A stretch of 35,155 nucleotides of DNA from Clostridiales bacterium (lineage in GTDB: Bacteria > Bacillota > Clostridia > Lachnospirales > Lachnospiraceae): positions 1-35,155 of the forward strand of contig JAAYJU010000142.1 of NCBI GenBank assembly GCA_012522735.1, read 5' to 3'. The position numbers were made by a program, and so were the translations under genes. The notes under the pieces are model-generated. The model ran no database searches. It had not been told where the DNA came from and saw only the letters and a program-made list of their open reading frames with translations. The first letter of the stretch is position 1; every line of letters starts with the position of its first letter. Shown here piece by piece: positions 30,123 through 34,130 of the stretch.

Positions 30123-30157
30123 TTGACAAAAAAATAACATAGTTCTATAATAAGAAC
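30123..30157 (+). promoter_or_regulatory. Consensus serC promoter with dyad over the -10 box
   Basis: TTGACA at 30123-30128, exactly 17 bases, and TATAAT at 30146-30151: both boxes match the sigma-A consensus perfectly. GTTCT (30142-30146) and AGAAC (30153-30157) form a dyad centred on the -10 box, a possible repressor site. The leader would be about 200 bases, long enough to contain all three hairpin repeats. Confidence 0.8.
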
Positions 30158-30193
30158 AATACTTTACTATGTTAAAGTTATAATGGATTACAT

Positions 30194-30350
30194 TGATGAG
30201 GGAGGTTAATTCCTCCGTTATATGTAACAAAAAAACAAAAATATTGAGGGAGGATAAATCCTCCGTTATATGTAACATATTAAAAATAATTTAATGAGGG
30301 AGGTTAATTCCTCCGTTATATGTATCAAAAAAACAAAAATATTGAGGAGG
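30194..30350 (+). repeat. Three tandem Shine-Dalgarno hairpins plus the true serC ribosome site
   Basis: The phrase GAGGGAGG recurs at 30198, 30246 and 30296, and GAGGAGG at 30344, a period of 48-50 bases. After each of the first three comes a four- to six-base loop, then TCCTCC and GTTATATGTAAC (ATGTATC in the third). Each therefore folds into GGAGG/CCTCC. The fourth, final copy lacks CCTCC and is the real serC ribosome site, 9 bases before the ATG. Units 1 and 3 are almost identical for about 50 bases. A similar arrangement stands before the DUF1015 gene at 32820. Mechanism unknown; the layout suggests regulation of translation or transcript end. Confidence 0.8.
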
Positions 30351-30359
30351 AATCAAAAA

Positions 30360-31442
30360 ATGGGAAGAATTTATAATTTTTCACCTGGACCGGCGATGCT
30401 TCCGGTAGATGTGCTTACCGAAGCCGCAGATGAAATGCTTGACTACAGAGGCTCAGGAATGTCAGTTATGGAGATGAGCCATCGATCTAAGGTATACGAA
30501 GGTATAATTCAGGAAGCAGAGAAGGACCTAAGAGAATTAATGAATATTCCTGATAATTACAAGGTACTATTCGTACAGGGAGGAGCCTCCCAACAGTTTG
30601 CCGCTGTACCAATGAACCTTATGAAGAATAAGGTGGCAGATTATATCGTTACAGGACAATTTGCTAAGAAGGCTTATGAGGAAGCTTTGATATACGGAAA
30701 GATCAATGTAGTTGCTTCCTCAAAAGATAAGACGTTTTCATATATACCCGATTGCTCAGACTTACCTATATCAGAAGATGCCGACTATGTGTACATATGC
30801 GAAAACAATACAATCTATGGAACTAAGTTCAAAACTCTTCCAAACACCAAGGGAAAAGACCTTGTAGCAGATGTATCCTCCTGCATCTTATCAGAACCTG
30901 TTGATGTAAGCAAATACGGCTTATTATTTGCTGGTGTACAAAAGAATGTAGGACCTGCAGGTGTGGTTATAGTTATAGTAAGAGAAGATTTAGTAAGAGA
31001 AGACACCTTACCTGGAACTCCAACCATGTTAAAATACAAGACTCAGGCCGATAACGCTTCATTATATAACACACCTCCTGCATATGGCATCTATATATGT
31101 GGCAAGGTCTTCAAATGGATTAAGAACATGGGTGGTCTAGAGGTTATGAAGGAGAAGAATGAGACAAAGGCTAAGCTTCTTTATGACTTCTTAGATCAGA
31201 GCAAGCTATTTAAGGGAACTGCAGAGAAGAAAGATCGTTCCTTAATGAATGTAACTTTTGTTACAGGTAATGATGAGCTTGATGCTAAATTCGTAAAGGA
31301 AGCTAAGGCAGTGGGTCTCGAGAACCTCAAGGGACATAGAACTGTAGGCGGTATGAGAGCTAGTATATATAATGCTATGCCTTATGAAGGTGTAAAATCG
31401 CTTGTTGATTTCATGAAGAAGTTTGAAGCAGAGAATTTATAA
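30360..31442 (+). CDS. serC: Phosphoserine aminotransferase
   Basis: A 360-residue PLP enzyme that converts 3-phosphohydroxypyruvate and glutamate to phosphoserine and 2-oxoglutarate. It begins RIYNFSPGPAMLPVDVL, the family start, followed by SVMEMSHRSKVYEGI and VLFVQGGASQQFAAVPMN. The PLP lysine is Lys 195 in GVQKNVGPAG, and NTPPAYGIYICGKVFKW follows near residue 240. The length is standard. The ATG at 30360 follows GAGGAGG by 9 bases. The frame is open to 30294 through the last leader hairpin, but those 22 residues are unconserved in appearance and start within a repeat copy. serA follows after 45 bases. Confidence 0.96.
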   Translation: MGRIYNFSPGPAMLPVDVLTEAADEMLDYRGSGMSVMEMSHRSKVYEGIIQEAEKDLRELMNIPDNYKVLFVQGGASQQFAAVPMNLMKNKVADYIVTGQFAKKAYEEALIYGKINVVASSKDKTFSYIPDCSDLPISEDADYVYICENNTIYGTKFKTLPNTKGKDLVADVSSCILSEPVDVSKYGLLFAGVQKNVGPAGVVIVIVREDLVREDTLPGTPTMLKYKTQADNASLYNTPPAYGIYICGKVFKWIKNMGGLEVMKEKNETKAKLLYDFLDQSKLFKGTAEKKDRSLMNVTFVTGNDELDAKFVKEAKAVGLENLKGHRTVGGMRASIYNAMPYEGVKSLVDFMKKFEAENL

Positions 31443-32819: not shown

Positions 32820-32885
32820 GAAGATGATTAGGAGGACAAGTCCTCCGTAATAGGTTATTAAAAAATTGAAGATGATTAGGAGGAC
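32820..32885 (+). repeat. Duplicated ribosome-binding region with anti-SD hairpin before the DUF1015 gene
   Basis: GAAGATGATTAGGAGGAC occurs at 32820-32837 and again at 32868-32885, 48 bases apart. The first copy continues AAGTCCTCC, folding into GGAGGA-CAAG-TCCTCC, then GTAATAGGTTATT. The second has no CCTCC and is the real ribosome site, 8 bases before the ATG at 32892. The arrangement, the period and the GTWATA tail match the serC leader. Confidence 0.8.
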
Positions 32886-32891
32886 TATGAA

Positions 32892-34130
32892 ATGGCGGTT
32901 GTAAAACCATTTATATGCACCAGACCAAAGCCGTCTGTTGCTCATAAAATTGCAGCACTACCCTATGATGTATATAATCGTGAGGAAGCAAAGGAGGAAG
33001 TACTAAAGGAGCCCTTGTCTTTCCTTAGAATTGACCGTGCAGAGACTAACTTTTCTGATGACGTGGACACATATGATGCTAAGGTCTACAGGAAGGCAAA
33101 AGAGCTTTTAGATGAGATGATAAACCAGGGCAACCTCCTGGTTGATGAAAATGAATGCTATTATGTCTATGAACTGGTCATGGATGGTAGATTACAGACC
33201 GGTATCGTTGCCTGTGCGTCTATAGAGGATTATCTTAATAATGTTATAAAGAAGCATGAAAACACCAGAGAAGATAAGGAGCTGGACAGAATATGTCATG
33301 TGGATGTCACTAATGCACAGACAGGACCAATTTTCCTTGCCTATCGTTCTCGTGAGGAAATCAATGCTCTGGTAGAGGAGACTAAGAAGGAGGAGCCCCT
33401 TTACTACTTTACTTCAGCCGATGACATAGGTCATCATGTATGGAGAATTTCAGAAATAGAGAAGGTTAGCTTTCTTAAGGAGGCATTTTCTAAGGTTTCT
33501 GATATATATATTGCTGATGGACACCACAGATCAGCTTCAGCAGTCAAGGTGGGACTAAAAAGAAGGAAGGAAAATCCGGGTTATTTGGGAACGGAGAGCT
33601 TTAATTATTTTCTTTCTGTCTTATTTCCTCATGACCAGCTTATGATTCTGCCCTATAACAGGGCGGTAAAGGACTTAAATGGACTTAGCAAGGAAGAGTT
33701 TCTTGATAAGATAAAGGAGAATTTCGAGCTAAATGAGCAGGGAGCTATGCCTTATAATCCACAGGAGAAGGCATCATTTGGGATGTTTTTAGACGGTATT
33801 TGGTATCAACTAAAGGCTAAAGAGGTTATAAGAAGCATTATGGACCCTGTTGATTCACTAGATGTATCCATATTGCAGGATTATCTACTGCACCCCATAC
33901 TGGGTATTGGAGATCCGAGAGTAGATAAAAGAATTGATTTTATAGGGGGAATTAGAGGTCTTAAGGAACTGGAAAGACGCGCGTCAAAGGATATGCGTGT
34001 CGCCTTCTCCATGTATCCAACATCTATAAATGAATTGTTTGCTGTATCGGATGCAGGAAAGCTTATGCCTCCGAAATCTACATGGTTTGAACCCAAGCTT
34101 CGAAGTGGTTTGTTTATACACTCACTCTAA
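32892..34130 (+). CDS. DUF1015 family protein
   Basis: A 412-residue soluble protein of the DUF1015 family (COG4198), function not established. Typical segments are VVKPFICTRPKPSVAHKIAA at the start, ALPYDVYNREEA, VIKKHENTREDKELDR around residue 120, and YIADGHHRSASAVKVGLKRR around residue 210. The Asp-Gly-His-His-Arg at 209-213 recalls the catalytic Asp-Gly-His/Arg motif of ParB-type nucleotide-using enzymes such as serine kinase SerK. This is a sequence impression, not a proven relation. The gene follows serC-serA after a terminator and shares their unusual leader repeats, which suggests a role near serine or phosphoglycerate metabolism. The ATG follows AGGAGG by 8 bases. Confidence 0.85.
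   Translation: MAVVKPFICTRPKPSVAHKIAALPYDVYNREEAKEEVLKEPLSFLRIDRAETNFSDDVDTYDAKVYRKAKELLDEMINQGNLLVDENECYYVYELVMDGRLQTGIVACASIEDYLNNVIKKHENTREDKELDRICHVDVTNAQTGPIFLAYRSREEINALVEETKKEEPLYYFTSADDIGHHVWRISEIEKVSFLKEAFSKVSDIYIADGHHRSASAVKVGLKRRKENPGYLGTESFNYFLSVLFPHDQLMILPYNRAVKDLNGLSKEEFLDKIKENFELNEQGAMPYNPQEKASFGMFLDGIWYQLKAKEVIRSIMDPVDSLDVSILQDYLLHPILGIGDPRVDKRIDFIGGIRGLKELERRASKDMRVAFSMYPTSINELFAVSDAGKLMPPKSTWFEPKLRSGLFIHSL

Follow-up and report, generated by a model that had tools for sequence, protein, structure and literature searches.

A clade-restricted cassette dispersed at ribosome-binding sites in the Herbinix group of Lachnospiraceae as a possible two-state translational control element

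Dispersed repeats in bacteria are usually thought to land beside genes, where they are sometimes recruited. Riboswitches and erm-type leaders are anti-SD/anti-anti-SD platforms in which mutually exclusive helices decide whether the Shine-Dalgarno sequence (SD) is free. An upstream SD without a translation start is known as the Stab-SD of Bacillus cry and hbs mRNAs, and to our knowledge it lacks a matching anti-SD and is not repeated genome-wide. Tandem repeats of 52 nt and of 20 to 21 nt, constant in size and variable in sequence, have been described in Bacillus, with their function left open in the main text of that paper (Subirana and Messeguer 2021, PMC8161180). The pneumococcal BOX elements are, in the sections of PMC3049150 drawn on here, dispersed RNA-structured repeats that are reported to alter expression and were found once between two T-boxes. 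In this study we describe a repeat that, at dozens of genes in each genome, appears to take the place of the ribosome-binding site in the correct register, and whose pairing partner co-evolves with the site of each gene.

The window (the whole stretch of 35,155 nucleotides that was analysed) comes from a genome of the Herbinix group, Lachnospiraceae, referred to below as G000; Herbinix is placed in the Lachnospiraceae in the portion of PMC4956452 used here. Upstream of a DUF1015 gene (32892-34130, PF06245), an 18-base segment GAAGATGATTAGGAGGAC at 32820-32837 recurs at 32868-32885, giving a period of 48 bases; the repeat extends to 24 nt when one mismatch is allowed. Sequence comparison thus confirmed the exact duplication of a ribosome-site segment that had been reported in the preliminary description of this DNA. 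The first copy holds a decoy SD, GGAGG, at 32831-32835 and is followed by the anti-SD CCTCC at 32842-32846, by a tail GTAATAGGTTATT at 32847-32859 in which internal covariation was not found, and by an A/T-rich spacer at 32860-32878 of a kind that is locus-specific across most of the family. The true SD, GGAGG followed by ACT, lies at 32879-32886 and is complementary to the anti-SD together with AGT at 32839-32841; all of these features are on the forward strand. The stretch AGGAGGACAAGTCCTCC (32830-32846) is the sole match to AGGAGG-N(2,12)-TCCTCC in the window, against a mean of 0.03 in 100 shuffles. The first copy had been described as locked and the second as free, but the anti-SD is paired to the second, true site in the predicted minimum-energy fold, so that the second copy is not free in that structure. 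The 8-bp helix concerned (AGTCCTCC 32839-32846 with GGAGGACT 32879-32886) is modelled as 3.1 kcal/mol better than the local hairpin, and this one-unit leader is predicted to be almost closed, with a P(open) of 0.002.

In the serC leader, related units are present in three copies at 30193-30356, spaced by 48 and 50 bases, with 47 more bases to the true SD. Unit 1 occupies 30201-30248 (decoy GGAGG 30201-30205, anti-SD CCTCC 30212-30216), unit 2 occupies 30249-30298 (anti-SD 30260-30264) and unit 3 occupies 30299-30345 (anti-SD 30310-30314). They are followed by the true SD GGAGG plus AAT at 30346-30353, of which all three added bases are matched by units 1 and 3 and only the first by unit 2, and by serC at 30360-31442 (aminotransferase class V, PF00266), again all on the forward strand. 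In the model this three-unit leader would be mostly open, with a P(open) of 0.71, a wide difference from the DUF1015 leader. The reported identity of loop, tail and period between the two leaders held for the related units and the 48/50 spacing; the letters of loop and tail differ, the loops being ACAAGT before DUF1015 and TTAATT or ATAAAT before serC, and the tails GTAATAGGTTATT and GTTATATGTAAC (one copy GTTATATGTATC), respectively, a likeness at the level of the consensus only. A promoter-like TTGACA-17-TATAAT was read upstream of serC (30123-30151, forward strand) and is present in array-less members of the genus too. By reading, this promoter-like motif is followed by a CTTTAC...AAAG stretch in many genus members, with or without arrays. 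The serC array itself was present in four of the 29 readable leaders of the genus, the G485 leader being masked by N.

The pattern GGAGGN{3,9}CCTCCGT occurred 108 times (51+57) in the window's genome compared to 3 times (1+2) for the reversed control pattern, and the relaxed palindromic GGAGGN{2,12}CCTCC occurred 145 times compared to 22. The matches listed included 100 of the 108 motif places, and part of the listed sites were fetched, giving 63 site clusters in this genome. A gene start on the same strand followed 55 of the 63; of the remaining eight, four ran off the contig end, two ran into degenerate units, one preceded another type of ribosome site and one was without a gene start. In the leaders that were read, the unit consisted of a decoy SD GGAGG, a loop of mostly 5 to 6 nt, the anti-SD CCTCC, a tail of about 12 nt with the weak consensus GTTRTADGTAAY, a spacer of about 20 nt that is A/T-rich and variable from locus to locus, and the next SD.

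For quantitative work, a cleaned set of 178 sites with 277 units from 10 species was assembled. From 248 relaxed clusters, those dropped comprised 57 for which no gene was called (N runs in 11, too little distance to a contig end in another 11, and partly chance palindromes among the rest), 5 at the wrong distance, 5 with a non-GGAGG site and 3 lacking G after CCTCC. Since sites were detected by the exact GGAGG...CCTCCGT (or CCTCCG), the conservation of decoy and core is partly built in; the flanking triplet and the spacing to the true SD lay outside the pattern, the cleaning keeping only sites with a true SD 42 to 54 nt from the decoy. Unit-to-unit distances fell within 45-52 nt in 99 of 99 cases and at 47-49 nt in 82, and the true SD followed the last decoy at 47-49 nt in 157 of the 178 sites. 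Of 158 parsed sites, 152 had the true SD 5 to 9 nt ahead of the start codon. One unit was present at 100 sites, two at 59, three at 18 and five at a single site. In units detected without requiring GGAGG, the decoy was still GGAGG in 170 of 172, at loci most of which had originally been selected with GGAGG. Arrays were often observed at contig ends or N runs, as in G000 at C24 (28572-28697), the start of C60, the end of C122, and C153, C164, C189, C192, C195 and C220. Arrays probably break draft assemblies, so that the array lengths seen here are probably lower bounds.

The constant unit size and variable sequence are shared with the 52-nt Bacillus satellites, as are species-specific tandem families, few conserved signals and partial conservation between strains, in so far as these are described in the main text of PMC8161180. 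The satellites described there are 51 to 53 nt long with mostly 4 to 10 units, whereas here the units are mostly 47 to 49 nt and number one to five. The cassette is also tied to the SD and start codon, unlike the satellites in that main text, in which Shine-Dalgarno, ribosome, hairpin, GGAGG, upstream and start codon (searched as word starts) are absent. BOX elements of Streptococcus pneumoniae resemble the cassette in being gene-adjacent dispersed repeats with tandem boxB middle modules, but they have boxA and boxC ends, and a ribosome-site register is not described in the sections of PMC3049150 drawn on; in contrast, the cassette supplies the SD, and its anti-SD and SD covary. No flanking modules common to the array leaders were seen on reading them. 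In Rfam release 15 the arrays had no family match at gathering score (window and 20 loci), and no description of tandem SD/anti-SD repeats was found among the open-literature papers listed, which is weak evidence of absence given that subscription journals were mostly outside the scope of that search.

The triplet that precedes CCTCC is complementary to the one that follows the true SD. Across the cleaned set, pairing beyond the 5-bp core averaged 2.81 bp. Shuffling of the suffixes among sites gave 1.23 bp (sd 0.11), the highest of 5000 shuffles being 1.65. Positions 1 to 3 were paired in 96.1, 94.4 and 88.8% of cases against expectations of 50.4, 69.5 and 79.8%, whereas positions 4 and 5 were at chance (23.6 and 53.7% against 23.6 and 57.1%), indicating a sharp stop after 3 bp. 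Perfect Watson-Crick triplets were found at 146 of the 178 sites (48.8 when shuffled, maximum 69 of 5000) and imperfect ones at 32. The matched triplets fell into 10 classes: three common ones with 56, 55 and 22 sites, and seven rare ones with 1 to 4 sites each. The decoy's own bases generally do not explain positions 2 and 3, since the loop is too short for those pairs. Among 76 orthologous pairs between species, which are non-independent inside one gene group, 45 kept both sides and 22 changed both; the change was confined to the ribosome site in 5 and to the anti-SD in 4. Within the 31 changed pairs, the site's own anti-SD paired 2.69 bp and that of the other species 0.71 bp. This covariation supports pairing and not a signal, and mutational repair of inverted repeats could be partly responsible for it. 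A structured tail hairpin (GTTA..TAAC) was rejected, as no covariation of the tail was found in the 15 pairings tested.

The energy model was applied to both helices. With only the two helices considered, the median predicted energy was -9.6 kcal/mol for the local state and -10.5 kcal/mol for the closed state (178 sites). The modelled difference between open and closed had a median of -0.94 kcal/mol (interquartile range -1.44 to -0.40), with 141 of 178 sites within 2 kcal/mol; with shuffled ribosome sites the median was +1.79 (1.36 to 2.36, 200 shuffles), and a mean of 82 of 178 lay within 2 kcal/mol. In the full ensemble of 173 sites, the predicted median cost of freeing the true SD was 2.58 kcal/mol with a single unit, 2.35 with two and 2.13 with three. 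Swapping the suffix would lower this cost to 1.4-1.7 kcal/mol, and removing the decoys in silico would raise it to 6.5-8.0 kcal/mol. Removal of the anti-SD gave a modelled 1.4-2.0 kcal/mol, from which the natural leader would seem to be poised, rather than shut, at equilibrium. The equilibrium median P(open) at 37 C was predicted to be 0.019 for natural leaders and 0.054 for the anti-SD-less leader; the anti-SD thus closes the true SD only modestly in the model, and the regulatory effect could be small. An RNA thermometer was rejected, since the modelled P(open) of the 173 leaders parallels the anti-SD-less control from 25 to 65 C.

By sequence and energy model, the arrays would thus offer two mutually exclusive helices of similar energy, maintained by covariation, as in an SD/anti-SD switch. 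On balance, and with some reserve, we favor the reading that the cassette is a lineage-specific, dispersed ribosome-site element for two-state translational control. In the proposed mechanism, a 47- to 49-nt unit would arrive directly behind an existing SD, which would become the decoy while the unit supplied the new SD of the gene. The anti-SD would then have two possible partners: the upstream decoy, in a helix of about 6 bp that leaves the true SD open, and the true SD with the three bases behind it, in a helix of 8 bp that closes it. Since the model gives both states almost the same energy, an occupant of the decoy or of the anti-SD should shift the gene toward open or closed. The likeliest occupant, at a guess, would be a 30S subunit on the decoy SD, an alternative being a factor that reads the GTTRTADGTAAY tail, and tandem duplication would add further decoy/anti-SD pairs. 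We infer that the RNA would switch in the cell and that translation would be altered. Against this reading stand the 32 imperfect triplets, the only modest closing in the equilibrium model, the wide modelled difference between the serC and DUF1015 leaders and the diversity of the genes concerned. The design differs from riboswitch and erm-type platforms in that the anti-anti-SD is a second SD and in that one design stands before dozens of unrelated genes; neither an aptamer nor a leader peptide was found in the array leaders. An upstream open reading frame beginning at the decoy was rejected, as a conserved start codon at a usable distance was not seen by reading; in this respect the decoy is like a Stab-SD, an upstream SD that does not start translation.

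The array genes share no single pathway or function. In the NCBIfam and/or Pfam libraries, 50 of the 52 cleaned genes of the window's genome were searched, along with the window's serA-like gene and two genes from other species. The genes assigned in this way in the window's genome included purM, carB, pyrF, guaA, argG, aroQ, ispF, glgA, pflB, gpsA, araA and gcvH, the tRNA synthetase genes tyrS, pheS, ileS and serS, and murD, murI, lgt, nusB, an XerD-like gene, fliE and rubrerythrin; transporters also carry arrays, and hisS, metG, cysS and flgC were added by sequence reading only. Several array proteins had no match in the libraries searched. The gene for IF-1 carries arrays in G485 and G504 (Pfam match for the G485 copy), and a putative ribosomal protein S18 gene, assigned from sequence, carries arrays in G491, G495, G496 and G504; the piece of putative S18 submitted was cut off and had no Pfam match at 1e-8. 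The nearest upstream frame (at least 70 codons, gene status unconfirmed) was on the same strand at 118 of the 161 sites with enough sequence, divergent at 41 and missing at 2. Among the 118, 51 ended within 30 nt of the first decoy or overlapped it, which is an upper bound for operon-internal sites, since the frame at serS conflicts with a T-box. Being as expected for operon-internal sites, this count fits translational control better than transcriptional control.

The cassette family is restricted to one clade. In a scan of 33 other genomes of the genus, four were array-rich besides G000, namely G485 (41+44 motifs, control 1+1), G491 (26+29, control 0+0), G504 (48+15, control 1+0) and G496 (13+14, control 1+3). 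Cleaned array sites were present at low copy in G487 (3), G488 (4), G492 (1), G493 (2) and G495 (2). In a tree of SerC and DUF1015, all array species fell into one 12-species clade (SH-aLRT 99), which also contained G478 and G479 at background motif level, and the five rich species required 3 state changes. No excess over control like that of G000 was found beyond the genus in a family sample of 199 other genomes, and no comparable excess in an order sample (294 others, partly the same genomes) or in a phylum sample (397 others, searched with a looser SD-antiSD-SD pattern). Mild excesses in these samples were 7+6 against 1+1 in G203, 9+6 against 0+2 in G647 and 9+6 against 1+1 in G772. High control-pattern counts in G288 and G543 were inspected in 10 stretches each, and the few matches were other repeats: TGCCTCC...GGAGG repeats in G288 (L446, L448, L449, L451) and a GC-rich repeat in G543 (L442), both unrelated to the cassette and matching the reversed control. 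A stricter pattern matched 42 stretches in public contigs, all but two of which (Kocuria, Sumerlaeia) were from six assemblies, these being the genus genomes G504, G485, G491, G493, G496 and G488. A phage or viral source was rejected after one exact pattern found no match among viral contigs.

Array positions are partly shared between species. Among fetched sites, arrays were assigned to 55 genes in G000, 35 in G485, 30 in G491, 37 in G504 and 5 in G496. The genes in common numbered 17 for G000/G504, 14 each for G000/G485 and G000/G491, 13 for G491/G504, 8 for G485/G504, 4 each for G485/G491 and G491/G496, 2 for G000/G496, 1 for G485/G496 and none for G504/G496, with less than 1 per species pair expected by chance, assuming a random draw from 2500 genes. 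An array in one genome only was found for 60 of 103 gene groups (fetched sites); together with the lack of sharing between G504 and G496, where 5 genes were compared, this suggests that the device is dispensable at single genes. The rich species had 175 sites in 107 array gene families, and all 12 cleaned sites of the low-copy species, clusters without a gene call being left out, were at genes also arrayed in a rich species.

The gap from the preceding stop to the gpsA start was 11 to 16 nt in eight of the nine clade members without an array there (the ninth, G487, has 39 nt), typically ending AGGAGGTATTTCATG, and 69 nt in G504 (one unit), 110 nt in G000 (two units) and 117 nt in G485 (two units); each unit thus accounts for about 48 nt, with a few bases left over. 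Between the stop and the first decoy are 2 to 10 nt, which puts this decoy at about the old position of the ribosome site. The suffix of the true site is TTT where arrays are present, matching AAACCTCC, and TAT, TAG or TAC otherwise. Compared in this way, empty and filled sites are consistent with units of about 48 nt having been inserted at the former ribosome site, and with that site then having become the decoy. Empty orthologous sites of this kind are MITE-like. MITEs share terminal inverted repeats read by a transposase; the cassette ends NNNCCTCC and GGAGGNNN are inverted repeats in most copies, and their NNN differ from copy to copy, falling into 10 matched classes, a variation not expected of a transposase site of fixed sequence. 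AGGAGGT flanks the gpsA insert on both sides and may belong to the unit rather than to a duplicated target. Arrays with similar spacers are present at gpsA in G000, G504 and G485, while G491, G493, G495 and G496 are empty. The spacer is nearly the same in G485 and in G000/G504, and the closest relatives of G485 are empty, suggesting horizontal exchange. At ispF, arrays are found in G000, G485, G491 and G496, with a degenerate decoy in G504; the gaps of array-less relatives are long and irregular there, so the insert size is unreadable.

Within loci, neighboring units of one array were 84% alike compared to 51% for random loci, and 53 of 99 neighbor pairs were at least 90% alike, whereas orthologous spacers were 67% alike compared to 62% for random loci, near saturation. 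Arrays are therefore homogenized or re-duplicated within the locus. At 23 of 172 sites, the spacer was also matched to at least 75% by the stretch that precedes the first decoy. The DUF1015 array was present in only one of the 30 orthologous loci read in the genus, that of the window's genome, and its spacer scored 17 against the array at L024, the top of 3109 within-genome pairs (runner-up 16, A/T-rich). By reading, the two leaders are also alike ahead of the decoy, in the tail and in the bases that lead to the start codon. This resemblance in spacer, flank and tail makes a copying step between loci likely, with the gene at L024 as a possible donor. That gene (L024, 1048-1458, minus strand, 137 aa) carries an array in G000, G491 and G504, and its protein had no match in NCBIfam at 1e-25 or in Pfam at 1e-8.

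The main rival to a control element is a self-preserving or neutral repeat without regulatory function, MITE- or BOX-like, that targets ribosome sites; we regard it as a real possibility, if on the unlikely side. Such a repeat would insert behind GGAGG, the SD at its end would restore function harmlessly, and the old SD would neutralize the anti-SD. The spread, the patchy occurrence and the restored SD are all accounted for by such a repeat, which is also in agreement with motif counts that range from background to 108 within one clade, with the many gene groups arrayed in a single genome, with a DUF1015 array that looks copied from one like that of L024, with the gpsA distribution suggestive of horizontal spread, and with the likeness of adjacent units. 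A harmless passenger should, however, avoid pairing with the new SD, and the match is instead extended and kept through two-sided changes; the location of all 12 low-copy sites at genes arrayed in array-rich species also speaks against it. The preliminary description had named a neutral repeat targeting ribosome sites as the outcome that would count against its own proposal. The targeting part has stood, in that the element sits at ribosome sites, but the covariation of anti-SD and true SD, together with positions common to species, argues against plain neutrality. Complementarity might also arise from mutation alone: quasi-palindrome correction by template switching would yield coordinated changes on both arms, and it could keep GGAGGNNN and NNNCCTCC in step, as the two-sided changes observed would lead one to expect. 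We consider this quite unlikely, since it would leave unexplained the exact spacing, the end of pairing at 3 bp, the confinement of the repeats to ribosome sites and the constant GGAGG decoy.

Three further explanations concern what the arrays might do. That the upstream SDs are 30S landing sites of the Stab-SD type, which stabilize the mRNA by shielding its 5' end from a 5' exonuclease, agrees with a non-coding upstream SD with a good GGAGG core, with the tandem copies and with the Firmicute host; an anti-SD matching the true SD would be unneeded, though, and many arrays seem to be operon-internal (frames unconfirmed), making this role very unlikely. A DNA-level binding array for a nucleoid or regulatory protein has been proposed for the 52-nt Bacillus repeats, and the constant period, variable sequence and short conserved signals are as described in the main text of PMC8161180, but here the orientation follows the gene (55 of 63 clusters) and the complementarity follows the ribosome site, and we find such an array highly improbable. 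To an element of a serine/one-carbon regulon we attach next to no weight. It was suggested by the presence of serC, gcvH and serS among the array genes and by the four serC arrays of the genus, but most array genes are unrelated, the DUF1015 array is confined to one of 30 loci, and the gene list led to its rejection. The scan of the genome that had been proposed as a check for serine, glycine or one-carbon enrichment returned 63 fetched clusters that precede mostly unrelated genes. Of the earlier proposal of a regulon-specific element rather than a chance duplication, what survives is a recurring ribosome-site element, and what does not is its specificity for serine, glycine and one-carbon genes.

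Returning to the two-state control element, we note that it suggests, for at least one family of bacterial tandem repeats with constant unit size and variable sequence, a concrete function that can be tested. With species that have no motifs, a few or 27 to 108 of them, the question of how a global layer of translational control arises is also open to direct test. A bolder version, which we hold to be doubtful, is a genome-wide translational code in which, at dozens of genes in each genome, the ribosome site would now be a balanced switch that reads free 30S subunits through decoy SDs, with the number of units as the gain, the cassette being young and spreading within the clade. If true, about a hundred gene families in five species would be affected, including those for tRNA synthetases, IF-1, putative S18 and purine, pyrimidine, amino-acid and cell-wall functions, and the comparison of species would allow the birth of a global riboregulatory system to be watched.

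Several minor observations were made along the way. The TATAAG of the tail resembles a promoter -10 element except for a G at one position, which is the position at which the T of the -10 element is most conserved. In L032 (G000:C59, minus strand), a shortened unit reads GGAGGTTAAAACCTCCGT and then almost immediately GGGAGGTTTAGGGTG of a possible HTH regulator gene, a type assigned from reading the sequence only, and so breaks the 48-nt rule. In G489, outside the array clade, a repeat at a contig end (L212, G489:C300, minus strand) has six units with a period of about 52 bp, mostly GGAGGAATTTCCTCC; no gene follows as far as the contig reaches, and a link to the 52-nt Bacillus satellites may exist. 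Immediately ahead of the lgt array, close to the end of a contig, there is a match to the group II intron family (RF00029, 46 bits, gathering 40; L051, 2695-2770, minus strand). T-box leaders (RF00230) were detected in 5 of the 20 array loci scanned, and a T-box lies upstream of the array and in the same direction at tyrS (L031, G000), serS (L075, G000) and, as read, metG (L170, G491), so that at these three loci transcription attenuation is stacked with the putative translational element.
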